Below the pieces are notes generated by a model. It did no database searches and had not been told where the DNA came from. It saw only the letters and a program-made list of their open reading frames with translations. A stretch of DNA of 64,000 nucleotides from a virus: positions 1-64,000 of IMG/VR virus record IMGVR_UViG_3300031576_000025. One strand, written 5' to 3'. The position numbers were made by a program, and so were the translations under genes. Of the stretch, positions 2,352 through 58,798 are shown one piece after another (positions within the stretch are counted from its first letter, which is position 1; each line of letters starts with the position of its first letter).

Positions 2352-2379
2352 TTGACAATTACCAGTAACAGGCTATAAT
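2352..2379 (+). promoter_or_regulatory. Sigma-70 promoter with TTACCAGTAA operator
   Basis: -35 TTGACA (2352-2357), 16-base spacer, -10 TATAAT (2374-2379): a consensus promoter. The spacer carries TTAC-CA-GTAA (2359-2368), an inverted repeat. The identical element recurs in the promoters near 46.3 and 46.7 kb, and variants occur near 46.6, 50.6, 50.9 and 58.8 kb. A repressor bound here would block RNA polymerase. The predicted start point is at about 2386. Confidence 0.9.
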
Positions 2380-2386
2380 GTCCAGC

Positions 2387-2608
2387 ATGGGGCCTGTCTG
2401 TTGCGCGTGCCTGTTCCGGGTCTTTTTCTTCGCGCTGCCGGTGTCGGCCATGTTCGTGCTGGCGTCCACAGAAAATGAAATGCGGTGGCTTGCGCCAAAC
2501 GTCCGCACCGTCGGCGGGCCGCTGCTGTTCTTGAACATGCTGGTGGCCGTCTGGCAGGCACGCGCAGGCGTGCTGCACCTGGACACCCACGCTTCGGCGG
2601 CGCGTTAA
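2387..2608 (+). CDS. Small membrane protein, possibly leaderless mRNA
   Basis: A 73-residue protein with two hydrophobic segments (residues about 7-25 and 44-57). The in-frame ATG at 2378 overlaps the -10 box and cannot be on the transcript, so the first usable start is ATG 2387, which coincides with the predicted transcription start; no ribosome binding site precedes it. A later ATG at 2450 is an alternative. It is the first gene under the operator promoter and may start the transcript for the genes that follow. Confidence 0.55.
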   Translation: MGPVCCACLFRVFFFALPVSAMFVLASTENEMRWLAPNVRTVGGPLLFLNMLVAVWQARAGVLHLDTHASAAR

Positions 2609-2859
2609 TGGACGGGGTGAAGGCGGACACGCGCAACGGCTGGCAGGTTTCAAAAAAGCTGGTCCACCTGTGCTTGGCCACCCACGTGCCGACCAAGTGG
2701 GTGGCCGTTGACCTGGAAACTGGGCACGTGTGGAACGCCAATCAGGACGGCTGCTGGGTCACGCCGGATTTGCCGACGGCGGAAGAAACCCTGGCGAAGG
2801 TGGCGCGGGCTTGCCTTGAAGCGCGGGCAAAATCGGCCGGGCCGCTGCCGCCCCCATGA
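2608..2859 (+). CDS. Hypothetical protein, 83 aa
   Basis: A soluble 83-residue protein with a beta-rich core (KLVHLCLATHVPTKWVAVDL, then a GHVWN turn), resembling a small barrel, and a helical C-terminus (TAEETLAKVARACLEARAKS). No family recognised. ATG 2608 overlaps the previous TAA by one base, and its stop overlaps the next ATG (ATGA). Confidence 0.6.
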   Translation: MDGVKADTRNGWQVSKKLVHLCLATHVPTKWVAVDLETGHVWNANQDGCWVTPDLPTAEETLAKVARACLEARAKSAGPLPPP

Positions 2860-3221
2860 CGCCCCCGGAGACCTGCTGGAGGGCCGGGTGGGACGGCCAC
2901 GCGGCGAAGCTGGACACGGCGGCGCGCGCGGAAGCGGCGTGCTGCGCGGCCTGGGACAGCGGGTGGGCCGCCGCTGCGGGCGGCACGCTGCGGGACGCCA
3001 ACCCGTACGTGAAGAAAGCCCACGGCCTTGGCGGTCTGCCCGACGACGCCCACGCGCCGTCCATGTGCTGGGCCGCGGGTTGGTCCTACTACATGGCGGG
3101 GGGCGGGCAGAACGACCGTGACGGCTGGAACTGCGCGGATTGGCTTGCGGGCTGGAATGCGGCGGCGGGCGGCAATCGCAAGGAAGCGAACCCGCACGCA
3201 GCGGTGACGGTGGGCCCGTGA
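2856..3221 (+). CDS. Tandem RMF/CrpP-like module protein
   Basis: A 121-residue protein built from repeats of one pattern: CW.AGW at the N-terminus, AAWDSGWAAAAGG....ANPY in the first third, CWAAGWSYYMAGG in the middle and ADWLAGWNAAAGG....ANPH near the end. The order 'GW.A..GG.....NPY ... W..GW' is that of ribosome modulation factor, where the same Gly-Trp and Pro-Tyr positions contact 16S rRNA. That is family knowledge; here only the spacing is seen. The module is duplicated, unlike the roughly 55-residue host protein. Translationally coupled to the preceding gene (ATGA). Confidence 0.55.
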   Translation: MTPPETCWRAGWDGHAAKLDTAARAEAACCAAWDSGWAAAAGGTLRDANPYVKKAHGLGGLPDDAHAPSMCWAAGWSYYMAGGGQNDRDGWNCADWLAGWNAAAGGNRKEANPHAAVTVGP

Positions 3222-3652
3222 CGCAGTACGCGCGGAACACGACGGTGTCGTGCGAAAAGTCAAAGGTGGAAATCGAACGGACGCTGACGCGCTACGGGGC
3301 CACGCACTTTTCCTACGCCACCATGCCCGAAGGCGCTGTGGTCCAGTTCGTCAAGGGCGGCAAACGAATCCGCTTCCTGGTCCCCATGCCCGCGCGGCCG
3401 GACGAAGGCGTGCGCGGCGGACCAGCGGCGTTCGTGCGGTGGGAAAAATCGCAGCGCCAGAAATGGCGCGCGCTGGGGCTGGTGATAAAGGCGAAGCTGG
3501 AAGCTGTGGCGTCGGGGATTTGCACGTTCGAGGAGGAATTCTTGGCGCACATAGTCCTGCCGAACGGGCAGACGGCCGGGCAGCACGTCATTCCGCTGAT
3601 AGAACGGGCCTACGAATCCGGGGAAGTGCCTATGCTTGGCTGGGGGGGGTGA
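3218..3652 (+). CDS. Conserved phage hypothetical protein
   Basis: A 144-residue protein starting at GTG (GTGA overlap). The N-terminal half is beta-rich with FVKGGKRIRFLVPMP; the C-terminal half is helical with WRALGLVIKAKLEAVASGI, TFEEEFLAHIVLPNG and a final LIERAYESGEVPML. This organisation is familiar from uncharacterised proteins in many siphoviruses, but no biochemical role is known to me. Confidence 0.7.
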   Translation: MTQYARNTTVSCEKSKVEIERTLTRYGATHFSYATMPEGAVVQFVKGGKRIRFLVPMPARPDEGVRGGPAAFVRWEKSQRQKWRALGLVIKAKLEAVASGICTFEEEFLAHIVLPNGQTAGQHVIPLIERAYESGEVPMLGWGG

Positions 3653-3653
3653 A

Positions 3654-5974: not shown

Positions 5975-6250
5975 ATGCTACAAGCATTGCTTAAGCATTG
6001 CTTAAGCATATGCTACAAGCATTGCTTAAGCATTGCTTCAAGCATAGATTTGGCCATGCTACAAGCATTTTAAGCATAGAAAAAAGGGGGGGTAAATGAC
6101 ACCGAAGGCTTGGCATGTAAATTGCCAGGAATTGCTTAAGCCTGCCACCGATGTAGGAAATTCCACACTCACGGAATGCTTCAAGCATTGCTTAAGCATT
6201 GCTTCAAGCATAAAACGGGGGGGCCATGCTACAAGCATTGCTTAAGCATG
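5975..6250 (+). repeat. Iteron-like array of AAGCATTGCTT
   Basis: Seven perfect copies of the near-palindrome AAGCATTGCTT begin at 5982, 5993, 6017, 6028, 6183, 6194 and 6233, with extra AAGCAT/ATGCT half-sites around them and a degenerate cluster at 6056-6077. Neighbouring AAGCA half-sites are 11-12 bases apart, one helical turn, so bound proteins would line up on one face. The array is A+T-richer than the rest of the phage. This is the architecture of replication iterons, partition centromeres or multi-site operators; which one cannot be told from sequence. Confidence 0.85.
6096..6245 (+). CDS. Possible 49-aa peptide within the repeat array
   Basis: An ORF starting ATG 6096, four bases after a strong GGGGGGG run. 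Its second half is the translation of the repeat array (KHCLSIASSI-like). The good ribosome binding site is the only support, and the coding content may be accidental because the repeats dominate the sequence. Confidence 0.25.
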   Translation: MTPKAWHVNCQELLKPATDVGNSTLTECFKHCLSIASSIKRGGHATSIA

Positions 6251-6432
6251 TTTTAGCATGAAAAACCGCAAAAGCCGGGCGACTATATAAAGACTCTGTA
6301 CGCCGTTAATGCCGGTTGTGCAAGCCGTTGAGAAAAAGAGAGAGATAAAAAAACGAACGGACTCTCTCGTCCCCTTCAAAAAACGACCCGAAATCCACCA
6401 CCCGAAACCCAACGGAACCACCCAAAAACCAC
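6251..6432. other. A+T-rich non-coding stretch with hairpin
   Basis: No convincing gene. It contains a TATATAA box (6284-6290) without a clear -35, and a strand-asymmetric segment where GAGAGAG (6338-6344) pairs with CTCTCTC (6362-6368). It lies between the iteron-like array and the next ORF, and could be a leader or origin-adjacent region. Confidence 0.5.
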
Positions 6433-46337: not shown

Positions 46338-46358
46338 GACCCAAAAAGGTCCTATGCC

Positions 46359-46400
46359 GTCCCCGACGGCCCCCGGGCCACGCGGCCCAGGGGCGGGGAC
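46359..46400 (-). terminator. Long compound hairpin after the 55-aa gene
   Basis: Outer stem GTCCCCG (46359-46365)/CGGGGAC (46394-46400), then CCCC/GGGG, then GGGCC-ACGC-GGCCC (46375-46388). It lies 6 bases beyond the stop of the leftward 55-residue gene and before the promoter of the integrase operon, so it probably separates the two transcripts. Confidence 0.65.
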
Positions 46401-46406
46401 CGGCGG

Positions 46407-46574: not shown

Positions 46575-46587
46575 TTTCCGACCCCCT

Positions 46588-46606
46588 GGCCCGACCTTGC
46601 CGGGCC
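46588..46606 (-). promoter_or_regulatory. AAG-loop hairpin next to ribosome binding site
   Basis: Minus strand GGCCCGGC-AAG-GTCGGGCC (one G-T pair) immediately precedes an A and the GGGGG binding run (46582-46586). Second member of the leader-hairpin family. Confidence 0.7.
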
Positions 46607-46620
46607 TGCCCTACATGGAA

Positions 46621-46649
46621 AGTATAGACGGATTACTAGCCATTGTCAA
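46621..46649 (-). promoter_or_regulatory. Leftward promoter with variant operator
   Basis: Minus strand: TTGACA (46649-46644), 17-base spacer, TATACT (46626-46621). The spacer carries GGCTAGTAA, which keeps the right half-site GTAA of the common operator but changes the left. The promoter at 50869 has a similar GGCTAGTAA, so this may be a second affinity class. Confidence 0.85.
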
Positions 46650-46692
46650 GACCCAGGCCGCCGGTCCATAGGACCTACGCAGAAATTGGGCC

Positions 46693-46720
46693 TTGACAAT
46701 TACCAGTAACAGGCTATACT
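46693..46720 (+). promoter_or_regulatory. Rightward promoter with TTACCAGTAA operator
   Basis: TTGACA (46693-46698), 16-base spacer with TTACCAGTAA (46700-46709), TATACT (46715-46720). It faces away from the leftward promoter at 46621-46649, 44 bases between their -35 boxes, forming a divergent control region. Confidence 0.9.
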
Positions 46721-46739
46721 TCGGGTATGGAAGCGAACG

Positions 46740-46758
46740 CCGCGGGCAAGGCCAGCGG
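46740..46758 (+). promoter_or_regulatory. AAG-loop hairpin in DUF932 leader
   Basis: CCGC-G-GGC-AAG-GCC-A-GCGG (46740-46758): two short stems separated by a G-A mismatch with AAG in the loop, followed by AAA and GGGGG (46762-46766) before ATG 46772. The match to the other leaders supports ATG 46772 as the real start. Confidence 0.6.
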
Positions 46759-46771
46759 AAAGGGGGCGAAC

Positions 46772-48037: not shown

Positions 48038-48047
48038 CCGGGCTGGC

Positions 48048-48075
48048 GGCGGGGCCCCTAGAACGGGGCCCCGCC
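48048..48075 (+). terminator. 11-bp GC hairpin after DUF932 gene
   Basis: GGCGGGGCCCC (48048-48058), loop tagaac, GGGGCCCCGCC (48065-48075), a perfect inverted repeat just after the stop at 48037. No U-tract, but stem stability is very high. A second imperfect repeat (GGACGCC/GGGCGTCC) follows before the next gene. Confidence 0.7.
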
Positions 48076-48137
48076 TGCACAGCCGGACGCCTGCGACGGG
48101 GGGCGGGCGTCCAGCCGGGCAGGCCCAGGGGGACGAC

Positions 48138-48356
48138 ATGGCGCTCAAGGCGGGTGACGTGGTGCGCAGGGCGGCGCGGGCAGGGGACACCCTGGTGCCG
48201 TTGCTGGTGTACGGGCTGGTGGCGGACGACAGCGGCAGGCTGCGCGCGGAGTTGTTTATTCGCCTGCCGGGAGGCGCGCCCGGGTCCTGGGCCGGGTGCC
48301 TGTCGCTGCGCAGACTTCGGCCCTGGGACACCGCGAAGGACGGGCCGCTGGCATGA
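48138..48356 (+). CDS. Hypothetical protein, 72 aa
   Basis: A 72-residue beta-rich protein (ALKAGDVVRRAARAGDTLVP, LLVYGLVADDSGRLRAELFI) resembling a small barrel. gggggacgac precedes ATG 48138, and the leader (GCCGGGCAGGCCCAGGGGG) looks like a degenerate relative of the AAG-loop leaders. Function unknown. Confidence 0.55.
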   Translation: MALKAGDVVRRAARAGDTLVPLLVYGLVADDSGRLRAELFIRLPGGAPGSWAGCLSLRRLRPWDTAKDGPLA

Positions 48357-48736
48357 AGCCGCGCACCAGGACATACGGGCCCGGGTGGGACGGGACCAGC
48401 AGAACCGAGCATTACGTCTGGCTGGACCGGGCCGGTCAGTCAACAACCTGGTCCGGCACGCGCTGGGCCATGATTCCTTTGCAGGTACGCCGCGCGCTGG
48501 TCCCGGTGCTGCCTATCCCTAATACGAACCACGGAAAGCGGCTTGTCAAGGTGGTGCTGACCGTGACCGAAGCGCGCGAGCTGCTGGGCGTTGCTGGCAA
48601 TGGCTACATGGACGGGGATTACTACCAGTTGAACAACGAAGGCCACCCGCCGACGGCAGAACAGAAGGCCGCGAACGAAGTATACAGCAGGGCGGAATCC
48701 AAGCTGCGCGCGGCCACCAACGGGACGGCACCATGA
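48353..48736 (+). CDS. Hypothetical protein, 127 aa
   Basis: A 127-residue protein from ATG 48353 (ATGA overlap). Beta-rich N-terminal half (TEHYVWLDRAGQSTTWSGTR), then VLTVTEARELLGVAGNGYMD and a helical end. No family recognised. Confidence 0.55.
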   Translation: MKPRTRTYGPGWDGTSRTEHYVWLDRAGQSTTWSGTRWAMIPLQVRRALVPVLPIPNTNHGKRLVKVVLTVTEARELLGVAGNGYMDGDYYQLNNEGHPPTAEQKAANEVYSRAESKLRAATNGTAP

Positions 48737-49137
48737 GCGCAGCCACGGACGCGCTGGACCGCCTGTACAGCAAGCTGCCGCGGCTGGACTGCCAGGGCAA
48801 GTGTCAACAGTCCTGCGGCCCCATTGCCATGGGCCAGGCCGAACTCGCGCGGCTGACCAAGCGGCTGGGCTACGTGCCGCGGTGGCCGGGCGTGGTGGCG
48901 GCCGTGACGCTGGCGGTGCTGGGGGCGGAAAAGGCCCTGACCTGCCCACTGCTGGATAAGGGCACCGGGCGCTGCACCGTGTACGCCATCCGGCCCATGC
49001 TGTGCCGCCTATGGGGCCTGGTGCGCGCCATGGCGTGCCCATGGGGGTGCGTGCCTACGCGCTGGCTGACGGACGACGAGGCCACGGCGCTGCTGGGCGC
49101 GGCCAGGCGGGTGGTGCCGGACGGGGGCGGGGCGTGA
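48733..49137 (+). CDS. YkgJ-like Cys-rich metal-binding protein
   Basis: A 134-residue protein with the YkgJ/CxxCxxCC-type zinc- or iron-chelating pattern: LDCQGKCQQSCGP near the N-terminus, CPLLDKGTGRCTVYAIRPML in the middle, CRLWG and ACPWGC after it. This family binds a metal via clustered Cys residues; its physiological role is poorly known. 4-base overlaps with both neighbours. Confidence 0.8.
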   Translation: MSAATDALDRLYSKLPRLDCQGKCQQSCGPIAMGQAELARLTKRLGYVPRWPGVVAAVTLAVLGAEKALTCPLLDKGTGRCTVYAIRPMLCRLWGLVRAMACPWGCVPTRWLTDDEATALLGAARRVVPDGGGA

Positions 49138-49268
49138 CCGCCAAGCCCGAGGTGTCCTGGCTGGCCAGGCTGGTGTGCTGGTGGCGCGGGTGCAGCCGCT
49201 ACTTTATCGAGCAGCCGGACCCTGACCACTGGTGGGTCAGGTGCAGGCGGTGTGGGCGGGTAAGCTGA
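49134..49268 (+). CDS. Small Cys/Trp-rich protein, 44 aa
   Basis: A 44-residue protein from GTG 49134 with paired Cys (CRRCG at the end, VCWWRGC near the middle) and several Trp residues, likely a tiny zinc ribbon. GTGA overlap upstream; TGATG with the next gene. Confidence 0.5.
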   Translation: MTAKPEVSWLARLVCWWRGCSRYFIEQPDPDHWWVRCRRCGRVS

Positions 49269-49465
49269 TGGGGAAACGGCAGCGGCGGCGGCTGAGCGCG
49301 AACAGGCTGCGGCGCGGCCGGGAAGCCGTGCTGGCAGCCATGCGCGCGCCTGAACCACCGGCGGCGGTGAAGCCGGACTGTACGCTGTGCGGCAAGCCAA
49401 TGGACAGGCGGGGTGAACTTCCGTGGCACCGGCCGTGCGGGTTGGAAAACGGGGTGGAATTTTAG
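49268..49465 (+). CDS. Small zinc-ribbon protein, 65 aa
   Basis: A 65-residue protein. A basic helical N-terminus (MGKRQRRRLSANRLRRGREA) precedes CTLCGKPMDRRGELPWHRPC, a C-x2-C...H-x3-C arrangement typical of a small zinc finger. Likely nucleic-acid binding. Confidence 0.55.
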   Translation: MGKRQRRRLSANRLRRGREAVLAAMRAPEPPAAVKPDCTLCGKPMDRRGELPWHRPCGLENGVEF

Positions 49466-49473
49466 GGGGGCGC

Positions 49474-50352
49474 GTGGCAAAGGAACACTTCAAGGATTGG
49501 GACCCCAGCGACGGTTCGCAGGACCGTCTGGAAAAGGTGCTGGACGTGCTGGCCCAGTACGCGGGCATGGACCTGCGCATTACGCTGCGCCAGCTTTTCT
49601 ACCAGCTGGTATCCAAAAACTTCATCGCCAACAAGCAGCGCGAATACAAGAACCTTGGCGAGCTGCTGTCGCGGGCGCGGCTGGCCGGGTTGGTGGACTG
49701 GGGGGCCATCGAGGACCGCATCCGGCAGCCGGACAAGCACGCCGAATGGGCCGACATCCCCGACCTGGTGGAATCTGCCGTGTCGTCCTTCCGCCTGCCG
49801 CGCTGGTCTGACCAGGAATGCTGCGTGGAACTGTGGTGCGAAAAGGACGCGCTGACCAGCGTGCTGGAACCTATCACGAACGCGCTGCACGTCACCTTGA
49901 TGGTGAACCGCGGCTACAGCAGCCAATCGGCCATGTACGAAGCGGCGCAGCGGTGGGCGCGCTCCGCGGACGACGGCAAGAAAAACATCCTGCTGTACCT
50001 GGGGGACTTCGACCCGTCCGGGCAGGACATGGTGCGCGACGTGCGCGACCGTCTGGCCATGTTCGGGCAGGAAGTGGACGTGCGCAAGCTGGCGCTGAAC
50101 CCCGACCAGGTGGCGCGTTACGGGCTGCCGCCCAATCCGGCCAAGCTGACGGACAGCCGCGCCGCAGGATTCGTTGCGAAGCACGGCGGCAGCAGCTACG
50201 AGGTGGACGCGCTGCCGCCGGATGTGCTGGCGCAACTGGTGCGCGGGGCAATCGAGGACACCATGGACATGAAGCTGTACGCCGCCTGGCGGGCCCAGGA
50301 AAAGGTGCTGAAGGCCAAGCTGGTGGCGGTGGCGAAGGCTACGAAGTGGTGA
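49474..50352 (+). CDS. Toprim (Spo11/TopoVI-A-like) domain protein
   Basis: A 292-residue protein. RITLRQLFYQLVSKNFIAN near residues 32-50 resembles the winged-helix region of Spo11/TopoVI-A relatives, and a Toprim fold follows with LWCEKDA (Glu about 123) and YLGDFDPSGQDM (DxD at about 178-180), then KLALNPDQVARYGLPP. The acidic residues coordinate metal for DNA cleavage or phosphotransfer in that superfamily. A catalytic Tyr cannot be assigned with certainty. Similar stand-alone proteins are found in phages and actinobacteria without known function. GTG start after gggggg. Confidence 0.75.
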   Translation: MAKEHFKDWDPSDGSQDRLEKVLDVLAQYAGMDLRITLRQLFYQLVSKNFIANKQREYKNLGELLSRARLAGLVDWGAIEDRIRQPDKHAEWADIPDLVESAVSSFRLPRWSDQECCVELWCEKDALTSVLEPITNALHVTLMVNRGYSSQSAMYEAAQRWARSADDGKKNILLYLGDFDPSGQDMVRDVRDRLAMFGQEVDVRKLALNPDQVARYGLPPNPAKLTDSRAAGFVAKHGGSSYEVDALPPDVLAQLVRGAIEDTMDMKLYAAWRAQEKVLKAKLVAVAKATKW

Positions 50353-50540
50353 CCGACGACGGCGGCGCGCAGCCGCCACGCCAGCGGCGGCACAGCTGGC
50401 GCTACGCTAGGGTGTGGGACTCCCGCTATGGCTGCCACCGCTTGACGTGGCAGGCCACCTGCCGCGCGTGCGGACTGACCATGTGGCGCAAGCATTTGCA
50501 GGGCCGTGGGCCGGGCGAGCCATGCCCCGGGTGGGTCTAA
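50349..50540 (+). CDS. Small zinc-ribbon-like protein, 63 aa
   Basis: A 63-residue protein from GTG 50349 (GTGA overlap). A basic Arg-rich N-terminus, then WQATCRACGLTMWRKH with a CxxC pair and a later Cys. It overlaps the Toprim gene's stop, so they are probably co-expressed. Confidence 0.5.
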   Translation: MTDDGGAQPPRQRRHSWRYARVWDSRYGCHRLTWQATCRACGLTMWRKHLQGRGPGEPCPGWV

Positions 50541-50546
50541 AGACCC
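50533..50546 (+). terminator. Hairpin over the stop codon before an operator promoter
   Basis: GGGTC-TAAA-GACCC (50533-50546) includes the TAA stop of the preceding gene in its loop. A larger alternative pairs CCCGGG (50526-50531) with CCCGGG (50544-50549). No U-tract. It lies just upstream of the next promoter and may limit read-through. Confidence 0.45.
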
Positions 50547-50570
50547 GGGCCGCATGGGTCCTTGTGGGCC

Positions 50571-50598
50571 TTGCGCTTTACTGGTAGAAGGCTAAACT
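50571..50598 (+). promoter_or_regulatory. Promoter with inverted-orientation operator variant
   Basis: TTGCGC (50571-50576), 16-base spacer, TAAACT (50593-50598). The spacer holds TTTACTGGTAG, close to the reverse complement of the common operator TTACCAGTAA. Spacing is the same as in the other members, which supports it despite a weaker -35. Confidence 0.7.
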
Positions 50599-50608
50599 GT
50601 GGGTGTGT

Positions 50609-50625
50609 GGCGGGCAAGGTCCGCC
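50609..50625 (+). promoter_or_regulatory. AAG-loop hairpin next to ribosome binding site
   Basis: GGCGGGC-AAG-GTCCGCC (50609-50625; one G-T pair) abuts the GGGGGG run (50626-50631) of the gene at 50640. Fourth member of the leader family; it lies just downstream of the operator promoter. Confidence 0.7.
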
Positions 50626-50639
50626 GGGGGGAAGCTGGA

Positions 50640-50861
50640 ATGGACGCTATTGGCGCGGTGTTCGACGTGGTACGGAAGGACTGGCGCGCGTACTTCGGCG
50701 CGCCGGTGCGGTCCATGACGCTGCGCGCGGCGGCTTGCGCACGGGAACTGCTGTGCCCCCGGTGCAAGGTGGCCATGTCCGGGCTGACGCACGCCGGGCT
50801 GCTGGGCGCGGAATGTCGCACCTGCCGCAGCGTGTTTATTCAGCCGGTTGGGACGGCCTGA
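50640..50861 (+). CDS. Small zinc-ribbon protein, 73 aa
   Basis: A 73-residue protein from ATG 50640 with gggggaag upstream. A helical N-terminus (DAIGAVFDVVRKDWRAYFGA) precedes LCPRCKVAM and CRTCRS, a C-x2-C...C-x2-C zinc ribbon. Its own operator promoter and leader suggest a regulatory or early role; no family recognised. Confidence 0.6.
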   Translation: MDAIGAVFDVVRKDWRAYFGAPVRSMTLRAAACARELLCPRCKVAMSGLTHAGLLGAECRTCRSVFIQPVGTA

Positions 50862-50868
50862 CGGCGGC

Positions 50869-50896
50869 TTGACTTGGGCTAGTAACCTGCTGTACC
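50869..50896 (+). promoter_or_regulatory. Promoter with half-site operator variant
   Basis: TTGACT (50869-50874), 16-base spacer, TGTACC (50891-50896). The spacer carries GGCTAGTAA, the same variant as at 46621-46649. It drives the HTH gene at 50937. Confidence 0.7.
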
Positions 50897-50936
50897 ATGG
50901 GTGCAGCGGGACAACACAAAGGACGGAGGACTGGCG

Positions 50937-51170
50937 ATGGCAAAGACGGCGAAGCACGAGTACACAACGGCGCAGCGCAAGCGCGGGAAGGAATTTCTGG
51001 ACTGGCTGAACGGCAAGGGCTGGACGCAGGATTCCTTCGCCCGCGACACCGGCATAAGCGTGGACACCATCCGCAAGTGGTGCGGCGGCACCGACCCGGA
51101 CAACATGGCCCGCATCGTCCTGCGCAACCGCTGCCCCGACTGCCCGCTGCTGGTCCAGAAGGTCGCCTAG
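50937..51170 (+). CDS. XRE-like HTH regulator (candidate operator-binding protein)
   Basis: A 77-residue protein with an XRE/Cro-type helix-turn-helix: WTQDSFARDTGISVDTIRKW (residues about 29-48), preceded by a basic arm and followed by a short helix and a CPDC pair. It resembles small Cro-like regulators. It is preceded by ggacggagga and transcribed from an operator-bearing promoter, so it is a good candidate for binding those operators and autoregulating. The HTH protein at 6808 is the other candidate. An intrinsic terminator follows. Confidence 0.7.
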   Translation: MAKTAKHEYTTAQRKRGKEFLDWLNGKGWTQDSFARDTGISVDTIRKWCGGTDPDNMARIVLRNRCPDCPLLVQKVA

Positions 51171-51216
51171 ACCAAGGAACCAGTGCCGCAGTCCAGCAGC
51201 GCCACCACAGGACCGG

Positions 51217-51256
51217 CGCGCCCGCGTGACCATAAGCGGGCGCGTACCGTTTTTTT
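51217..51256 (+). terminator. Intrinsic terminator after HTH gene
   Basis: CGCGCCCGC (51217-51225) pairs with GCGGGCGCG (51236-51244) around a 10-base loop, followed after five bases by seven T residues (51250-51256). It separates the regulator transcript from the recombination operon. An attenuator or antitermination target is possible because no promoter is obvious between it and the gene at 51290. Confidence 0.8.
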
Positions 51257-51289
51257 GCCACCCCTGACCAACCAAAGGAGAACCCGACA

Positions 51290-52252
51290 ATGGGCGAAGA
51301 ACTAGAGACAGCGCCGGAACAGCAATTGGAAACGGTGCCCACGGACAAGGCACCCATGACGTTCAACGAGGACCGCATCAACGCGCTGATTCACCTAGCC
51401 GAACGCAGCGAAGTGCTGGGCAAGGCGCTGGACACGCTGCGCGCGTTCGTGCTGAAGCGCGCGCTGCCCGGCGACTGGGTGAAGTTCGCGCAGGAAGGCG
51501 GGGACGCCTACCTCGAAATGGGCAGCGCCGGGGCCGACCGTATCGCCGCCGTGCTGGGGATTTCCTTCACTGGCTGGTCCAGCGAAAAGGTGCTGGGCAG
51601 CGACGACTACGGGGCCAAGTTCGATTGGTGGTACCGCTGCAACGTCCACTTCCAGGGCCGCACCATCGAAGGCATCGAAGGCCGCTGCGGCAGCCGGGAC
51701 AAGTTCTTTGGGTTCAGCCATGGGACCTGGAAAGACCTAAAGGACGTGCGCGAAACGGACATCCGCACGGCCGCCCGCCGCAACGCCATGAAGGAAGGCG
51801 TCAAGGTCATGCTGGGCATTCGGCGTCTGCCCATGCAGGACGCCATCAAGATGGGCCTGCCCGCGGACGTAATCAAGGGCCACACCTTCGCCAACAAGGC
51901 CGACCACGGCGGCACGCAGGCCGCGGCTGCCGGGGCCGCGGCGGGGTCCGGCGGCGGCAGCGCGGGGACCATGGAAGCCACCGAAGTGGTGGTGGACGTG
52001 ACGAACAAGACGGGCGGAACGCCCACGAAGCCATGGACCAAGTTCTTCATCAGGACCATGGGCGGCACCGTCTACAACACGTTCGATAAGGACTTCGCGC
52101 AGGCGGCCAAGGACGTGAAGGGCACCGGCCAGAAAGTCCTTATCAGCTTCATCGTGAACCAGTACGGCAGCGAGGTCAAGTCGCTGAAGGCCGCGCCGGA
52201 CAAGCCCGCGGGGGCCCCGGCCCAGGGCACGCTGCCGGGGACCGAAGCGTGA
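51290..52252 (+). CDS. Putative ssDNA-annealing recombination protein
   Basis: A 320-residue protein with an excellent ribosome binding site (aaaggaga). The N-terminal domain (about 25-195) has YLEMGSAGADRIAAVLGISF and DIRTAARRNAMKEGVKVMLG; the C-terminal part (about 235-300; WTKFFIRTMGGTVYNTFDKD, KVLISFIVNQYGSEVKSLK) looks like an OB fold. Gene order, just before an exonuclease-like PD-(D/E)XK protein and the replication genes, is that of phage annealing proteins (Sak/ERF/RecT-type). The subfamily is not recognised, so the role is inferred from context and OB-like C-terminus. Confidence 0.6.
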   Translation: MGEELETAPEQQLETVPTDKAPMTFNEDRINALIHLAERSEVLGKALDTLRAFVLKRALPGDWVKFAQEGGDAYLEMGSAGADRIAAVLGISFTGWSSEKVLGSDDYGAKFDWWYRCNVHFQGRTIEGIEGRCGSRDKFFGFSHGTWKDLKDVRETDIRTAARRNAMKEGVKVMLGIRRLPMQDAIKMGLPADVIKGHTFANKADHGGTQAAAAGAAAGSGGGSAGTMEATEVVVDVTNKTGGTPTKPWTKFFIRTMGGTVYNTFDKDFAQAAKDVKGTGQKVLISFIVNQYGSEVKSLKAAPDKPAGAPAQGTLPGTEA

Positions 52253-53283
52253 CCGACGCAGCCGCGCAGCCAGGCGCGGCAACAGAAGCCGACCCCGCCA
52301 CCACGGCGCTTTCCGTGGTGGCGGCGTTGGCGGCTGAAATCGAAACCAAGCGCAACGCCATGCTGCTGGCGACAATCACCAATCGCCCCAAGCAGAACAG
52401 CTGGGCCAGCCAGGTGTCCGCCTGCAACCGCCAAAACGTCTACAGCATCCTGAACTGGGAGGACCGGAAGCTGCACGACATACGCCTAGCGGCGCGGTTC
52501 AAGGCTGGCAACGACCAGGAAAGGATTATCCTGCGCGAACTGAACGAACTGGGCTTCGACGTTGTGGAAGGGCAGGCCACGCTGCCCACCGACATGACGG
52601 CCGCCTACCGGGTGTCCGGCCGGATTGACGGGAAGCTGCGCTACATGGGGCACCGAATCCCTTTTGAAGTGAAGTCCTGCCACCCGCGGATTTTCGCCAA
52701 GCTGGAAAGAATGTCCAACGCCGACGCGCTGGCGTTCATTTCCGCAGACCGCTACATATCCTCCCACCTTAAGCAGTTCAGCCTGTACCTGTTCGGGCAC
52801 AACGAGGAAGCGGGGCTGCTGCTGTACACGGACTGCATGGGCCATTGGAAGCTGGTCACGGTCACGCTGAACTACGCGCTGGCCGAATCCGTGCTGGACC
52901 AGCTGGACCTGGTGAAGCGGTACGTGGAGGCCAAGGAATTGCCAGACCGGATTCCTTACGACGAGGACCTGTGCGGCGGGTGCAGCTTCCTGCATATTTG
53001 CCTGCCGGACGTGGTGCGCGCGGAAACGCAGCTGGTGGACGACCCGGCCACGGTGGTTGCGCTTGACCGCCGCGCGCAGCTTTCCGCGCCCGCCGACGAA
53101 TACGAGGAACTGGACAAGGCGCTGAAGGAAAAATACCGCGGGACGACGCGGAAGATTTTGGGCGGGAAGTGGGTGGTGGAATCCAAGGAAGTGCTGGTGA
53201 AGGGCAAGCCGCAGTGGCGCACGACGTTCAAGGTTCTGGACCAGCAGGAAACGGCGGAAGCCGCGGACGCGCAGCAGGGATAG
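52249..53283 (+). CDS. PD-(D/E)XK exonuclease with Fe-S cluster motif
   Basis: A 344-residue nuclease of the RecB/Cas4/AddB type. Catalytic residues: D127 in SGRIDGK, E140 and K142 in PFEVKSCH. Four Cys residues are placed as in Cas4/AddB iron-sulfur nucleases: C59 near the N-terminus and C242, C245, C251 in CGGCSFLHIC. Such enzymes resect DNA ends for recombination, here likely working with the preceding putative annealing protein (GTGA overlap). C-terminal domain beyond 265 is helical with a basic end. It ends just before a large hairpin. Confidence 0.82.
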   Translation: MTDAAAQPGAATEADPATTALSVVAALAAEIETKRNAMLLATITNRPKQNSWASQVSACNRQNVYSILNWEDRKLHDIRLAARFKAGNDQERIILRELNELGFDVVEGQATLPTDMTAAYRVSGRIDGKLRYMGHRIPFEVKSCHPRIFAKLERMSNADALAFISADRYISSHLKQFSLYLFGHNEEAGLLLYTDCMGHWKLVTVTLNYALAESVLDQLDLVKRYVEAKELPDRIPYDEDLCGGCSFLHICLPDVVRAETQLVDDPATVVALDRRAQLSAPADEYEELDKALKEKYRGTTRKILGGKWVVESKEVLVKGKPQWRTTFKVLDQQETAEAADAQQG

Positions 53284-53346
53284 CCGCGGTCTTTCGGCGG
53301 CCTGGCCGCCAGTGGACCGCGGACGTGCGGTGGCAGCAAGGCTGCC
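53284..53346 (+). other. Nested hairpins between recombination and replication genes
   Basis: CCGCGGTC (53284-53291) pairs with GACCGCGG (53315-53322) around an inner GGCGGC/GCCGCC stem (53296-53310). Then GGCAGC-AAG-GCTGCC (53332-53346) is a 6-bp stem with AAG loop. No T-tract. The strong structure directly follows the stop at 53283, so it may act as a partial terminator or RNA-processing site upstream of the replication genes. The AAG loop is like that in the leader family, but the ribosome binding site is 17 bases away. Confidence 0.65.
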
Positions 53347-53373
53347 GCCTTGGACGCAGCAACGGAGGAGTTC

Positions 53374-54105
53374 ATGTGGCAAGACAGAATAACCGTGGAA
53401 GTCGGGTACCCACGCCACCCCAAAACAATCACCCTGATTCAACGTCTTGGAAACGGTGCCGACGCCATACCCGTCCGGCTTTGGTGCTGGGCGGCCGAGT
53501 TCAAACCACAGCATGGAAAGCTGGGGAACCTGGACATGGACCCCAGCGAGGTGGAATCGCTGGTGGATTGGTGGGGGGAACCGGGGGCGTGCTTCAACGC
53601 CATGCTGGGGCTGTTCATTGACCGCAACGAGGACGGCTTCTACCTGCACGACTGGGGCGGACATCGGGGCCACGTCACGACCTACCACGAGCGCGCGAAG
53701 GTGGCGGCCAATACGCGCTGGGCGCGCCACAAAGCCATGAAGGCAGCCAAAGAAGAACGCGCCGCGGCCGGGCGCAAGGCTTCGCAGCCAGCGATAGACC
53801 TAGTGGACCGCCTGGTTGGGCTCATGCTGAAGAACGACCCCAATGCGCGCGTGCCTGGCAAACCGGCGGCATGGCAGCAGGATGCCGAAAAGCTGCTGAC
53901 GACGGACGGCCGCGGCGCGAAGGAAGCAACCGCGGTTCTGGAATGGTGCCAGCGGTCAACCTTCTGGCGCAGCAATATCCTCAGCATGGGCAAGTTCCGC
54001 GCCAAGTATTCGCAGCTATTGCTGCGGATGCAGGACGAGGGGAAGGAATCGGTAAATGGTCCCGTTGGGTCAGCAGCCCCGGTGGCGGGCAAGTATGCCA
54101 AGTGA
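53374..54105 (+). CDS. Replication initiation protein (helicase-loader partner)
   Basis: A 243-residue protein from ATG 53374 with ggaggag upstream. The N-terminal domain (HPKTITLIQRLGNGADAIPV, LDMDPSEVESLVDW, FYLHDWGGHRGHV) resembles phage replisome organisers. The C-terminal part (ATAVLEWCQRSTFWRSNILS followed by FRAKYSQLLLRM) matches DnaD/replication-initiator tails that bind the helicase loader. Directly followed by the DnaC-like gene, as in many phages. Origin DNA would be its target; none is identified nearby. Confidence 0.75.
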   Translation: MWQDRITVEVGYPRHPKTITLIQRLGNGADAIPVRLWCWAAEFKPQHGKLGNLDMDPSEVESLVDWWGEPGACFNAMLGLFIDRNEDGFYLHDWGGHRGHVTTYHERAKVAANTRWARHKAMKAAKEERAAAGRKASQPAIDLVDRLVGLMLKNDPNARVPGKPAAWQQDAEKLLTTDGRGAKEATAVLEWCQRSTFWRSNILSMGKFRAKYSQLLLRMQDEGKESVNGPVGSAAPVAGKYAK

Positions 54106-54826
54106 AACCGGGGACCTGAAGGCCGCTGGGGACTGCCTCCCGGAAGATGCGCTGACGGCGCAGCCGGACGCGGTGGCGGTGGAATGCGGAGCGTGCGGCT
54201 ACCCGTTGCGGGTCGGCGTGTGCGAAAAGTGCGCCGAAGATAAGGACAAGGAACTGGCCGCGCAGCGGCAGCACATGGCCGACCTTGGCGGGCAACGTCC
54301 GTACAATTCCTTCACGCTGGACAAGTACCTGGTGACGGCGACGAACCGCGCGGTGGTTGACGCGCTGCGCGCCTTCGACCCGGCCAAGGACAACTTCTAC
54401 CTGCTTGGCCCGACCGGCACAGGGAAGTCCCACCTGGCCGTTGCCGTCGCCCGCCTGTTCTGGCCAAAGCTGCGCCCGCTGGTGCGCAAGCCCACCGAAG
54501 TGACCCGCGAAGCGCGGCCGAACGGGCGGCCGGGGACCAGCACCGAAGCCGACACGATAGGCAAGTATGCGCGCTGCCGCGTGCTGGTGCTGGACGACCT
54601 GGGCGTGGAACGGGACAGCCAATTCACCCACCAGGTCTTTTACGAAATCATCGAGGGCCGCTGCCTTGCCGAACGAAACGGCCTAATCCTGACCAGCAAC
54701 CTGGGCCTAAACGACCTGGCCAAGAAGCTGGGCGACGACCGCATAACGTCCCGATTGAACGGGCTGTGCAAGCTGCTGGACCTGACCGGGGAACCGGACA
54801 GGCGCGCGGCGTGGCAGGCGACGTGA
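54095..54826 (+). CDS. DnaC-like AAA+ helicase loader
   Basis: A 243-residue protein. A zinc-ribbon segment (CGACGYPLRVGVCEKC, about 31-46) is followed by an AAA+ domain with Walker A GPTGTGKS (about 105-112), Walker B VLVLDDLG (about 163-170), sensor-1 LTSNLG and the arginine-finger region DRITSRLNGL. It loads replicative helicase onto the phage origin. A PEDALTAQPDAV stretch at the N-terminus (about 14-26) is shared with the methyltransferase at 56187. ATG 54095 overlaps the preceding gene by 11 bases. Confidence 0.88.
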   Translation: MPSETGDLKAAGDCLPEDALTAQPDAVAVECGACGYPLRVGVCEKCAEDKDKELAAQRQHMADLGGQRPYNSFTLDKYLVTATNRAVVDALRAFDPAKDNFYLLGPTGTGKSHLAVAVARLFWPKLRPLVRKPTEVTREARPNGRPGTSTEADTIGKYARCRVLVLDDLGVERDSQFTHQVFYEIIEGRCLAERNGLILTSNLGLNDLAKKLGDDRITSRLNGLCKLLDLTGEPDRRAAWQAT

Positions 54827-55023
54827 ATGCGGTTGCCAGCTGGATAAATCGGGACGGCAGCATGACCGTGCTGTGCATCGGCTGCGGGTTGACCGCCAAG
54901 GTTCTGAAACCAGTGCTTGACGCCATGCCGGACCAGGCCGCGCCGTTCGGGCCTGGGGAATTTGACCACGCTTGCAGGGCTGTGCTGCCAGGTTCCGGGC
55001 GGCCTGGGGGCAGCAATGGGTGA
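54823..55023 (+). CDS. Small CxxC protein, 66 aa
   Basis: A 66-residue protein from GTG 54823 (GTGA overlap with the loader). CIGCG near the middle and a later Cys (FDHACRAVLPG) could bind zinc. No family recognised. Confidence 0.5.
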   Translation: MNAVASWINRDGSMTVLCIGCGLTAKVLKPVLDAMPDQAAPFGPGEFDHACRAVLPGSGRPGGSNG

Positions 55024-56164
55024 CCAATCCAGCATCGAATGGACGGACGCAAGCTGGATGCCGGTGCGCGGCTGCGTGCGCGTAAGCCCTGGGTGCGTGA
55101 ACTGCTATGCCGAACGCATGGCCGCCACGCGGCTGGCGCACACCGACGCCTACCGGGGGCTGGCGGCCATGACCAAGGACGGTCCACGGTGGACCGGGGA
55201 AGTGCGCCTGTCCCCGGGGGAACTGGACCAGCCTATCAGGTGGACGCGCCCGCGCAAGATTTTCGTTTGCAGCATGGCAGACCTTTTCCACAAGGACGTG
55301 CCGGACGATTACCTGGACAAAGTCTTTGCGGCGGCGGCCTTGGCCCCCCAGCACGTGTTCCAAATCTTGACCAAGCGGGCCGAACGCCTGCCGGAATACT
55401 TCAACGCGGAAGGCCGCCGGGGCGCGGTGTGCAGCGACGGCGTGGCCGCGCTGGGCTATGACGGCGAAGCACAGGAAGCCGCCTACGCCAACGTGGAAGC
55501 CGGGGGCGGGTGGCCGCCGCAGAACGTGTGGGTTGGGGTGTCGGCGGAGGACCAGGACAACGCGGTGCGACGGATTGCCCTGCTGACGCAGACCAAGGCC
55601 CAGGTGCGCTGGGTGTCCGCAGAACCGCTGCTGGGCCCGGTGGACCTGTCGCCGTGGCTGTGGGGCCCCAAGACACTTGGGCTTGGCGGCGTGCCGCGCA
55701 GCGGCCTTCTGCACTGGGTAGTGGCTGGCGGGGAATCCGGGCCCGGGTCACGACCCATGCACCCGGCCTGGGCGAAGCTGCTGCGCGACCAATGCCAGGA
55801 CGCTGGGGTGGCCTATTTCTTCAAGCAGTGGGGGGCCTGGACGCCGGAGGTTCCGAACGGCGCGCCCTACACGTCCCTGGCGCTGTTCAATCAGAATGAG
55901 AACGGGGACAAGCCCATCCTGATAAAGAACCTGGAAGCGGACAGGCGGGCTGACTGGACCGAAGGACAGGCGGACGACACGCTTATGTTCCACGCGAACA
56001 AGAAGGCCACCGGCCGTGTGCTGGAAGGACGGACCTGGGACGAATACCCGGCCATGAAGTGCATTCACTGCGCACAGCCAGCGCAGCCAGGGACGACGCT
56101 GTGCGGCCCGGCCTGCTTGTCGCAATGGCAGGCCGACCGGCGGGAGGCGGCGCGTGCTGACTAG
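55016..56164 (+). CDS. DUF5131 (phage Gp37/Gp68) family protein
   Basis: A 382-residue protein. SIEWTDASWMPVRGCVRVSPGC contains the start of the family signature; C-x6-C-x2-C (GCVRVSPGCVNCYAER, about residues 17-32) resembles a radical-SAM-like cluster site. FQILTKRAERL, VWVGVSAEDQDNAVRRI, and WVVAGGESGPGSRPMHPAWA are also typical. The C-terminus adds a zinc-ribbon (KCIHC...LCGPAC). These phage proteins are widespread and their reaction is unknown. ATG 55016 overlaps the previous gene by 8 bases. Confidence 0.85.
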   Translation: MGDQSSIEWTDASWMPVRGCVRVSPGCVNCYAERMAATRLAHTDAYRGLAAMTKDGPRWTGEVRLSPGELDQPIRWTRPRKIFVCSMADLFHKDVPDDYLDKVFAAAALAPQHVFQILTKRAERLPEYFNAEGRRGAVCSDGVAALGYDGEAQEAAYANVEAGGGWPPQNVWVGVSAEDQDNAVRRIALLTQTKAQVRWVSAEPLLGPVDLSPWLWGPKTLGLGGVPRSGLLHWVVAGGESGPGSRPMHPAWAKLLRDQCQDAGVAYFFKQWGAWTPEVPNGAPYTSLALFNQNENGDKPILIKNLEADRRADWTEGQADDTLMFHANKKATGRVLEGRTWDEYPAMKCIHCAQPAQPGTTLCGPACLSQWQADRREAARAD

Positions 56165-56186
56165 CGGCCACGACGGCCAGGGTGCC

Positions 56187-57164
56187 ATGCCTGAAGATGC
56201 GCTGGCAGCGCAGCCTGACGCCGTGCCTGGACCGGCCAGCGCGGACGGCCAGAACGTGGACCTGTTCGGTGAACCAATAGACGACTTCAAGAGCGCGAAG
56301 GAACGATACGGCACCTGGCCGGTGACGGTGTGGGATTGCGACCTATCGGACCCGACCGTGCGCAAGATGAAGGACGCCATTGGGGACATTTGCAGCAGCC
56401 GCGCCGGGACCGGCAAGCTGGGCTACCAGTCCAAGTCCCGCGGCAGCGCGCGCGCCGGGTGCCTGCGCGAAGCGACGGACGACGCCAGCGTGTACGGCGG
56501 GAAAATAACGGAATCAATCTTCAACCCGGCCGTGGCCGCCTGGATTCTGAACCTGTATGCGCCGCGCACCAAGGACGCCATCTGCTATGACCCGTTCGCC
56601 GGGGGCGGCACCAGGGCAATCATGGCCGCCAAGCACGGCATGAAGTACATGGGCGTTGAAATCCGCCAGGCCGAAGTTGACGCGGTGGAACAGCGGTGCA
56701 AGGCGCTCGGGGTGGACAAGCAGGTGGGAATCATTTGCGGCGACAGCCGCACTGCCACCAAGGACCTTGAAGGCGGCTTCGCTGATTTCCTGCTGACCTG
56801 CCCGCCCTATTACGACCTGGAAACGTACGACGGCGGCCCCAACGATTTGAGCATGGCCCACACCTATGCCGAATTCGTGGCTGGTCTGAAGGACGTGGTG
56901 GAAGAATCCGCGCGCGTGCTGCGGCCAGGGGCGTTTAGCTGCTGGGTGGTTGGGCTGCACCGCAATGACGCCGGGGAAATCCTAGCCATGCACCACGACC
57001 TTGCGCGGCTGCACCAGGAAGCCGGATTCAGGTTCAAGGAAGAAGTGATTTTGCACCAGCGCAACAACGGGGCCATTCAGCGGGTGGGCCAGTTTGAAAA
57101 AGGGGACAAGCGGTTGGTGCGCATTCACGAATACCTGCTGGTGTTCGTGCGGGGGATTGAATGA
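56187..57164 (+). CDS. DNA methyltransferase (N4/N6 type)
   Basis: A 325-residue SAM-dependent methyltransferase. Motif I YDPFAGGGTRAIMAA (about residues 134-148) comes before motif IV TCPPYYD (about 204-210), followed by VLRPGAFSCWVVG. The PPY motif indicates amino methylation of adenine or cytosine. It may protect phage DNA from host restriction; no endonuclease is adjacent. The N-terminus (PEDALAAQPDAV) repeats a stretch of the helicase loader. GTG 56154 would add 11 residues and overlap the DUF5131 gene. Confidence 0.85.
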   Translation: MPEDALAAQPDAVPGPASADGQNVDLFGEPIDDFKSAKERYGTWPVTVWDCDLSDPTVRKMKDAIGDICSSRAGTGKLGYQSKSRGSARAGCLREATDDASVYGGKITESIFNPAVAAWILNLYAPRTKDAICYDPFAGGGTRAIMAAKHGMKYMGVEIRQAEVDAVEQRCKALGVDKQVGIICGDSRTATKDLEGGFADFLLTCPPYYDLETYDGGPNDLSMAHTYAEFVAGLKDVVEESARVLRPGAFSCWVVGLHRNDAGEILAMHHDLARLHQEAGFRFKEEVILHQRNNGAIQRVGQFEKGDKRLVRIHEYLLVFVRGIE

Positions 57165-57574
57165 CCAAGACTATCAAGGCCCTGTCGCTTAAGCAGCCGT
57201 GGCTGAACTGGGTGCGCGACGGACGCAAGACGATTGAAACGCGCACGTGGACTACCAAGCACCGCGGGCCGCTGCTGCTGGTTGCGTCCAAGTCCGTTGA
57301 CAACGAAGCGGCGCTGCTTGACGACGTGACCGCGGACCACGTGTATGTCACCGGCAAGTCTATCTGCCTGGTGGAACTGCTGGACGTTCGGCCAATGACC
57401 GAAGCGGACGTGGCCGCAGCCATGTGCCCGTGCAGCCCCGGCCGGTTCGCCTGGGTGCTTGGCCTGGTGCAGCCGATTGTCCCTGTGCCAGTGCGCGGCC
57501 AGCTGAACATATTTGACGTGCCGCTGACCGCTGACGTGGCAGCTATCATTGCGAACTGGGAGGACGGGAAGTGA
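57161..57574 (+). CDS. ASCH domain protein
   Basis: A 137-residue protein with a clear ASCH fold: ALSLKQPWLNWVRDGRKTIE at the start, TRTWTTKHRGPLLLVAS, then CLVELLDV and WVLGLVQPIVPVPVRGQLNI. ASCH domains are PUA-like and bind RNA or modified nucleotides. ATGA overlap with the methyltransferase and GTGA overlap with the next gene. Function in the phage unknown. Confidence 0.88.
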   Translation: MTKTIKALSLKQPWLNWVRDGRKTIETRTWTTKHRGPLLLVASKSVDNEAALLDDVTADHVYVTGKSICLVELLDVRPMTEADVAAAMCPCSPGRFAWVLGLVQPIVPVPVRGQLNIFDVPLTADVAAIIANWEDGK

Positions 57575-57918
57575 GCCAGAACCAGGCTGACGGTCGGACG
57601 CTGCCGCTTGCTGTCGAATACAACCCGCTGCGGGACGTGCTGATGGTGGACGGGGTGAAGTACGCTGGCACGCTGTTCCGCATGATTTCCAGCGGTCGGC
57701 TTTGGCGCGCCATGCGAATAATCGAACGGACGGAAGATGGGCAAGTCGTCATGCAGGACGTGCAGACGATTGCGGACGGCGTTGTGGACGCGGCAGAAAA
57801 CCTATTAAAGGAAGCCAGCGCGCTTCAGTCGGACGGTGCCGCGCCGCCGTTGCTGGCAGCGGCCATGGCCAACCTGCGGGCTGCTGCCGCGCGGCTTGGC
57901 GGGGCTGGTGGCACATGA
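57571..57918 (+). CDS. Hypothetical protein, 115 aa
   Basis: A 115-residue protein from GTG 57571. A beta-rich first half (AVEYNPLRDVLMVDGVKYAG) with TEDGQVVMQDVQTIADGVVD, then Ala-rich helices. No family recognised; overlaps the ASCH gene by 4 bases. Confidence 0.6.
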   Translation: MSQNQADGRTLPLAVEYNPLRDVLMVDGVKYAGTLFRMISSGRLWRAMRIIERTEDGQVVMQDVQTIADGVVDAAENLLKEASALQSDGAAPPLLAAAMANLRAAAARLGGAGGT

Positions 57919-58268
57919 GTAGGACGTTGACAGTGACGGTGAAAACCCCACAGGGTCCGAAGCACATAGGCACTTTCGGTGACGCCGTGCTGCGCAAGCG
58001 TGTGGCTAAATCCAAGCACTTCCTTTGGAAGCTGCGCGCATGGGGCATGGACGCCACCGCGCTGCGCGTGCTGTCTGAACGCGGCTGCGCGACGGTGGAA
58101 TATCTGGAAACGGAAAGCAAGACGGTGTACACCAGCACCATGACCGACTGGCAGGACAAGGGGCAGCGCGCCGATTTCGGGCACGGGCCGCAGGTGTTCC
58201 TGCCGCTTATGTATTGGACCAGCAGGCAGTTGGACCAGGCGCAGCTGGAACTTTTCAAGGGGGCGTGA
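57915..58268 (+). CDS. Hypothetical protein, 117 aa
   Basis: A 117-residue protein from ATG 57915 (ATGA). N-terminal beta strands (TLTVTVKTPQGPKHIGTFGD), then RVAKSKHFLWKLRAWGMDAT and helix-rich C-terminus (LMYWTSRQLDQAQLELFKGA). No family recognised. Confidence 0.6.
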   Translation: MSRTLTVTVKTPQGPKHIGTFGDAVLRKRVAKSKHFLWKLRAWGMDATALRVLSERGCATVEYLETESKTVYTSTMTDWQDKGQRADFGHGPQVFLPLMYWTSRQLDQAQLELFKGA

Positions 58269-58744
58269 TGAAGGAATTAACGACGACCGGGAAGCTGCGC
58301 GCGGCACGCAAAGCCATTGCGTACCACCTGGCGAATTCCGAAGCCATGCGTTCGGAAATCGCCCGGCTGACGCAGGTTGTGGCGCAGTACGAACTTTCCC
58401 TGAAGGTCGCCACGGAAAGAATGGTTGACGTGGAAAAATCCAATCAGCGTTTCATGGCAGAAACGCAGGCCGCCGGTGTCGTCGCCGCAGCCGCGCGCCA
58501 TGAATCCGACCTGCAACGCCGCGCAAAAAACCACGTGGAAATGTTGCTGCGGGAAGAACGGCAGAAGTCAACGCGCTACCAGCTTATGCTGGCGTGCAAG
58601 GACTTGGCGTTGGAAAAGGGGCAGGCCGCCATCCTGGTGGCCGTGACCAACGAGAACGGCTTAGACGGTGCCGACGGGGAACGGGTGGCGGTGCTTATGG
58701 ACGCTGCGCTGCACGCAGAAGTTCGCCTGTCGGAAGGGAAGTAG
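58268..58744 (+). CDS. Coiled-coil protein, 158 aa
   Basis: A 158-residue protein that is almost entirely helical; residues about 20-105 contain a long coiled coil (EIARLTQVVAQYELSLKVAT, LLREERQKSTRYQLMLACKD). Starts at ATG 58268 (TGATG); GTG 58265 is an alternative. It is the last gene before the operator promoter at 58770. Function unknown. Confidence 0.6.
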   Translation: MKELTTTGKLRAARKAIAYHLANSEAMRSEIARLTQVVAQYELSLKVATERMVDVEKSNQRFMAETQAAGVVAAAARHESDLQRRAKNHVEMLLREERQKSTRYQLMLACKDLALEKGQAAILVAVTNENGLDGADGERVAVLMDAALHAEVRLSEGK

Positions 58745-58769
58745 GTCTACCGACCCAACGTCCTGGGCC

Positions 58770-58798
58770 TTGACAGTTACCAGTAATACGCTTATACT
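58770..58798 (+). promoter_or_regulatory. Promoter with TTACCAGTAA operator
   Basis: TTGACA (58770-58775), 17-base spacer with TTACCAGTAA (58777-58786), TATACT (58793-58798). The rightmost member of the operator-promoter set. Confidence 0.9.

Follow-up and report, generated by a model that had tools for sequence, protein, structure and literature searches.

Eight dispersed phage promoters share a putative spacer operator, and six of them lead into a covarying RNA hairpin

We analyzed a 64,000-nucleotide stretch of viral DNA (the window; bases 1-64000 of the 82,218-bp virus record IMGVR_UViG_3300031576_000025, GC 66%) and found that eight far-apart sigma-70-type promoters of this record carry a common operator-like inverted repeat, or one half of it, between their -35 and -10 hexamers, and that six of them are followed by a conserved leader hairpin set just ahead of the first start codon. 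We consider it moderately likely that these promoters are under dispersed repressor control, that the hairpin adds a post-transcriptional layer and that the helix-turn-helix (HTH) protein encoded at 50937 is the likeliest regulator. A previous sequence-only reading of the window had proposed that a repressor sitting on seven such sites would block RNA polymerase at many places at once; the shared, non-random element and its blocking position are borne out, while the repressor itself remains a putative one. The hairpin is the new part of the finding. The record's first and last 175 bases are identical at 174 positions, and a tRNA-Asn (record 82017-82091 and the record ends) spans the join of this repeat, so that the record probably represents a complete circular map of ~82,043 bp. 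In the reading favored here, the phage is most likely temperate.

All seven elements reported previously were confirmed, in position and strand, by reading the sequence, and an eighth that had been missed, TTGCAA-GCGGCTAGTAA-AACGCT-TATACT, lies beyond the window at record 67471 (+). Four sites match TTGACA-N1-TTACCAGTAA exactly and thus contain the full inverted repeat TTACCAGTAA: promoter 1 (2352-2379, +; TTGACA-ATTACCAGTAACAGGC-TATAAT), promoter 2 (46310-46337, -), promoter 4 (46693-46720, +) and promoter 7 (58770-58798, +; 17-bp spacer). A pattern search of the phage's own genome for this string gave three forward matches and one reverse match, and none for a backward control pattern. The claim that all seven sites share the inverted repeat therefore holds for these four only, as the other three, like the eighth element, retain a single good half-site. 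Promoter 3 (46621-46649, -), divergent from promoter 4, reads ATGGCTAGTAA with the half-site CTAGTAA, and promoter 6 (50869-50896, +), a weak variant before the HTH gene (TTGACT-TGGGCTAGTAACCTGC-TGTACC), reads GGGCTAGTAA. Promoter 5 (50571-50598, +; TTGCGC-TTTACTGGTAG-TAAACT) reads CTACCAGTAAA on the opposite strand, its half-site CCAGTAA being on the minus strand and inverted relative to the promoter.

Aligned on the -35 hexamer, the sites give the consensus TGGGYC-TTGACA-N4-CYAGTAA-N5/6-TATACT, with a 10-bp dyad core, TTAC-YR-GTAA, inside the spacer. The spacing said to be common to all sites is so only in part: the operator-like block stands at a fixed distance from the -35, but the -10 follows at a spacing of 16 or 17 bp, the slack falling between the block and the -10. 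The most complete palindromes occur in the strongest promoters, and the hexamers at 50571 (TTGCGC/TAAACT) and 50869 (TTGACT/TGTACC) are poor. Because the element overlaps the -35/-10 region, a protein bound there would exclude polymerase. About 20 bp upstream of the -35, five promoters have a GGYC-N3/4-GRCC dyad, one copy of which is shared by the divergent pair (GGTCCATAGGACC, 46663-46675, between promoters 3 and 4); others lie ahead of promoter 5 (GGTCTAAAGACC, 50534-50545) and promoter 7 (GGTCTACCGACC, 58744-58755). A listing of perfect GGTC dyads in the genome has 11 entries, three of them upstream of these promoters, and a role of this dyad as a third part of the cassette is suggestive only.

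A whole-genome scan, which had been put forward as a check on the element, shows that it is non-random, with eight sites and almost nothing elsewhere. On the two strands of the 82-kb genome there are nine copies of CYAGTAA, eight of them within the promoters described here, against 2.9 expected under a third-order model, and TTACNNGTAA occurs at four places, all in these promoters (0.055 expected). Strict promoters of the form TTGACA-N16/17-TATAMT number five, compared with 0.0 expected from 200 random genomes, and in all five, which a record-wide scan identified, CYAGTAA stands at one constant distance from the -35. With a matrix derived from the eight sites, scores are 24.7-40.8 at the sites themselves, at most 14.7 elsewhere in the genome and at most 18.2 in random genomes drawn from a trinucleotide model; this gap is partly circular, since the matrix was trained on the same eight sites, but the counts of CYAGTAA, TTACNNGTAA and strict promoters are independent of it. 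Taken together, the matrix scores against random genomes and the observed and expected counts rule out a chance origin of the element.

Downstream of six of the eight promoters (46337-, 46649-, 46693+, 50571+, 58770+ and 67471+) lies a hairpin that had escaped the sequence-only reading. Its C-AAG-G loop is invariant, and a G-run Shine-Dalgarno sequence and a start codon come after it; promoters 2352 and 50869 do not have this hairpin. Within the window the hairpins are found at 46278-46296 (-; GCCGGGC-AAG-GCCCGGC, then GGGGGG and ATG), 46588-46606 (-; GGCCCGGC-AAG-GTCGGGCC, then GGGGG and GTG), 46740-46758 (+; CCGCGGGC-AAG-GCCAGCGG), 50608-50626 (+; GGCGGGC-AAG-GTCCGCC, then GGGGGG) and 58808-58826 (+; GCCGCGTC-AAG-GACCGGC, then GGGGG and ATG at 58835). 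Their positions point to 46772, rather than 46727, and to 50640 as the likely starts of the genes behind promoters 4 and 5. Across the six hairpins, compensatory changes are present at six of eight base pairs, which identifies the hairpin as an RNA structure. Paired cells amount to 87.5%, compared with 66.6% when partners are shuffled, and sliding the partner by one column lowers the figure to 58% or less; the covariation score is 0.58 against 0.21 for shuffled alignments, a value that none of 500 shuffles reached. The covariance model derived from the six recovers all of them (E 1.7e-6 to 3e-4), as expected of a training set, and yields one further candidate only (E 0.017), a weaker seventh hairpin at 62696-62714 (+; region 62692-62725; GCCCGG-CAAGA-CCGGGC, then GGGGGG and ATG at 62724) that sits inside an operon without this promoter. 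The genome contains exactly six instances of the string GNCAAGGNC with G4 and RTG behind it, and Rfam covariance models gave no credible match across 44500-64000. A DNA operator is ruled out for the hairpin, as its arms change while pairing is kept, and so is an intrinsic terminator, as it lacks a T-run and stands upstream of the start codon.

The genes behind these promoters had been thought to include integrase and a putative HTH regulator, and the gene calls agree. Promoter 2 heads a leftward operon (46266-44703) whose last gene encodes a tyrosine recombinase (integrase; 44703-45581, -), while promoters 5 and 6 head a unit in which an intrinsic terminator separates the HTH gene, and the small gene before it, from recombination and replication genes (Cas4-like, DnaD-like and DnaC-like). 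Promoter 3 heads a short divergent, leftward gene of 55 amino acids, and promoter 4 the rightward genes from 46772 up to 50.4 kb, among them one for a TopVI-A-like protein (phrog_6247). Further early genes follow 58770+ and 67471+. Promoter 1 heads a small membrane-like gene, and its ATG ~8 nt past the -10 suggests a leaderless message or a very short leader. The regulon had been called phage-wide, which fits the early, lysogeny and accessory regions, to which the elements are confined, but not the structural operon (~12-44 kb), which is without any cassette. The operon of promoter 4 also encodes, at 49232-49465, a 77-amino-acid protein with the most Arg-rich segment (KRQRRRLSANRLRRGR), ranked first of 136 predicted proteins for basic segments; judged by its composition, it is a possible RNA-binding protein.

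The terminator after the HTH gene (51214-51256, +; a 12-bp GC stem bearing a TA bulge, with T7 after it), likewise absent from the sequence-only reading, bears on what the hairpin might do. The gene behind it begins at 51290, too close for a promoter to fit in between. To reach the replication genes, transcription must pass the terminator, and antitermination could serve this end: the hairpin would act as a nut- or put-like signal allowing readthrough from the hairpin promoters, while transcription from the hairpin-less promoter of the HTH gene would stop at the terminator. This alternative bears on the hairpin alone and leaves room for an operator in the spacer. The order of hairpin promoter, small gene, HTH gene, intrinsic terminator and recombination/replication genes resembles the PR-nutR-cro-tR1 arrangement of lambda, with a leader hairpin and a Cro-like gene in common, and multi-nut phages, with three such sites, have been described (PMC11893012). 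Two other hairpin operons likewise have a strong hairpin behind their first gene, one at 48040-48085 (+; -42 kcal/mol, z -5.9), which lacks a T-run and is a possible terminator or processing site in the operon of promoter 4, and one at 46347-46410 (-; -44 kcal/mol), after the 55-amino-acid gene and upstream of promoter 2. In contrast to lambda, however, no consistent boxA was found here (the closest boxA-like sequences differ from it at 1-3 of 8 positions and lie on the -35/operator), no N or Q homologue was recognized, the AAG triloop differs from the boxB loop, and there are six copies. In addition, no terminator comparable to 51214-51256 was found in the 58770 and 67471 operons, the seventh hairpin precedes a start codon without this promoter, and the hairpin is tied more closely to the start codon (~9-14 nt) than to the -10 (~9-19 nt). 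We regard antitermination as rather unlikely, and rate a role in translation or mRNA stability higher, given the near-constant distance to the start codon and the seventh copy inside an operon.

Which protein would act on the spacer element? Pfam scans of ~40 proteins and six-frame searches leave a single Xre-type HTH protein, the 77-amino-acid Xre/Cro-like product of 50937-51170 (+). A six-frame search of the genome gave a single HTH_3 match, the one in this protein at 51012-51089, and the corresponding searches with HTH_17, RHH_1 and Peptidase_S24 were negative. Since it also sits behind a variant site, the 50937 product is a fair candidate, and the only good one, for the putative repressor. 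The weak promoter, weak site and dedicated terminator make an autoregulated repressor a natural reading of this gene, although a Cro-like protein would fit equally well. A fold search with this protein gave loose matches to Xre, C-protein and lambda cI domains, all with E above 0.1. The protein at 6808, named as a second candidate alongside that at 50937, has a weak transposase-like HTH match only and no such element nearby, leaving its proposed role unsupported.

We propose that one phage regulator, binding the putative spacer operator (TTAC-YR-GTAA), would block RNA polymerase at all eight places, so that the integrase operon, the 46.7-kb operon and the downstream early and accessory operons would be switched together; where the dyad is incomplete, a half-site with a degenerate partner would serve as operator. 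The 50937 regulator would be made from its own weaker promoter, with its weaker site, and closed off by the intrinsic terminator. In six cassettes a second, RNA-based layer would be added, in which the hairpin upstream of the first gene's Shine-Dalgarno sequence may control translation start or early mRNA stability. Because the same cassette recurs at eight places, the whole early gene program is probably switchable by one regulator. If this is correct, one regulator and one RNA motif would account for the early program of an otherwise unclassifiable phage, and repressor, operators and immunity could be tested with eight defined fragments. A stronger version, in which the two layers form a regulon unlike any described, with a repressor on the spacer operators, a dedicated phage or host RNA-binding factor on the C-AAG-G hairpin and the regulator's promoter exempt from the second layer, is tentative, and we think it somewhat improbable.

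Several observations count against this model. One half of the palindrome is missing in four of the eight sites, and, with no relative's genome found, the case for the operator is built on paralogous sites within a single genome. The HTH protein is small, its Pfam score is sub-threshold and its structure model (five helices) is of low confidence. Taken singly, the hairpins do not clearly exceed shuffles of their GC-rich sequence in stability, so that the case for them is made by covariation and position and not by energy. Finally, CYAGTAA at this spacer position is found in sigma-70-like promoters of 29 independent clusters in IMG/VR, whereas the reversed control gave 7 and the reverse-complement control 10, with rough clustering and these two controls only. 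As the motif is thus mildly over-represented in unrelated viral promoters, part of its conservation could reflect a general promoter or spacer feature.

The last result raises the alternative that RNA polymerase, a sigma factor or a host activator reads the spacer block as a promoter element, the phage simply having strong early promoters that share a preferred spacer. The three- to fourfold enrichment, in the same place and direction, in unrelated viral contigs fits such an element, as do the fixed position of the block relative to the -35 and the retention of only the CYAGTAA half in half of the sites. The enrichment may, however, come partly from tandem TAG-TAA stop codons at gene ends, and no spacer needs the perfect palindrome present at four sites. 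Near-consensus promoters call for a repressor rather than an activator, which would be superfluous, and a dyad between their hexamers is therefore best explained by a repressor. The half-site inverted at 50571 likewise fits an operator and speaks against a polymerase contact, which is probably not feasible in that orientation. On balance, we judge a promoter element unlikely.

T4-type early promoter stem-loops have reportedly behaved as mobile or duplicated promoter units, and the cassettes could in the same way be mobile or recently duplicated, kept for gene shuffling rather than for joint repression. Their position at operon borders and the 27 identical bases common to 2351-2377 and 46692-46718 are in keeping with this. 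Yet the shared bases are mainly functional ones, every cassette is at a gene start, and the hairpin arms, leaders and flanks differ, the arms covarying rather than being copied; this origin thus appears very improbable, and joint repression continues to be our preferred reading.

Relatives carrying the cassette were found neither in IMG/VR nor in ~85,000 bacterial and archaeal genomes. A blastn comparison of 45-52 kb with phages returned no close relative, and IMG/VR queried with the 46.7-kb protein, the HTH protein, TerL alone or a TerL alignment held nothing closer than ~31% identity. The full cassette pattern had no match in the ~85,000 genomes, nor did the TopVI-like protein have a relative there; the strict element has eight matches in IMG/VR, one site each in sequences of 33-57% GC with no sign of kinship. 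Other features of the record were noted in passing. Five copies of a 37-nt A+T-rich repeat (ATGCTTCAAGCATTGCTTAAGCATTGCTTCAAGCATA) at 5975-6262 lie in a low-GC island ahead of the genes at 6433 and 6808 and are a possible origin, packaging or regulator site. A sigma-70-like TTGCAA-N17-TATTAT at record 77398-77426, with TG before the -10 and without CYAGTAA, is a candidate for a lysogeny-expressed promoter. A 1655-amino-acid tail-fibre-like protein of degenerate VNVQDGGNSLTVD-type repeats is encoded at 36154-41121, and the product of record 79282-79857 weakly matches the Acb2/Tad1 hairpin domain of Pfam (E 7.5e-4, which is below cut-off), together with PGDYG, and is by these matches a possible anti-defence sponge.

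Among known systems, the closest are the ESAS/SAS elements of cluster K mycobacteriophages, followed by the stoperators of L5, the C1 operators of P1 and the SPBRE of SPbeta. In SPbeta, a 15-bp element in about ten promoter regions answers to one master repressor, MrpR (PMC10516654), and the present phage likewise has one element in many promoter regions; MrpR, however, is a repressor of tyrosine-recombinase fold, whereas the sole recombinase here looks catalytically intact by sequence, the elements themselves being compared by description. P1 has 22 dispersed operators for one repressor (PMC8546580), an arrangement similar to a single repressor with many operators across the genome as proposed here, but its consensus is a 17-bp asymmetric A+T-rich sequence that is absent from this genome at up to 4 mismatches. 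The L5-type stoperators of cluster A mycobacteriophages are many dispersed sites, some overlapping promoters, with CTTGACA in their consensus (PMC9283540); the dispersal and the -35 CTTGACA within the consensus are shared. Stoperators, in contrast, are 13-bp asymmetric sites, oriented with transcription, that also occupy promoterless intergenic spaces, while every site here is a promoter and one half-site is inverted, and the L5 consensus is not enriched (one match has 1 mismatch and 17 have 2, almost all of them dispersed through coding sequence).

The ESAS/SAS systems combine intergenic SigA-like promoters with an inverted repeat for a presumed repressor in the non-structural region of a temperate phage, and many of these promoters come with another conserved element immediately before the start codon (PMC3203893, PMC11373665). 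Several promoters outside the structural genes sharing an inverted repeat, together with a start-associated second element, are also what we observe. As the SAS consensus GGGATAGGAGCCC has no match at start codons with up to 2 mismatches, this phage is not an ESAS/SAS member, though it would work alike. The architectures differ in two respects: the 10-bp dyad lies inside the -35/-10 spacer, as opposed to ESAS inverted repeats of 15-17 bp (compared by description), and the start-associated element is a covarying hairpin in which the loop alone is fixed, as opposed to a fixed 13-mer. If our reading holds, the way in which cluster K phages couple a promoter with an operator and a start-associated element would gain an independent counterpart with a covarying RNA, in which the role of start-associated elements could be tested.

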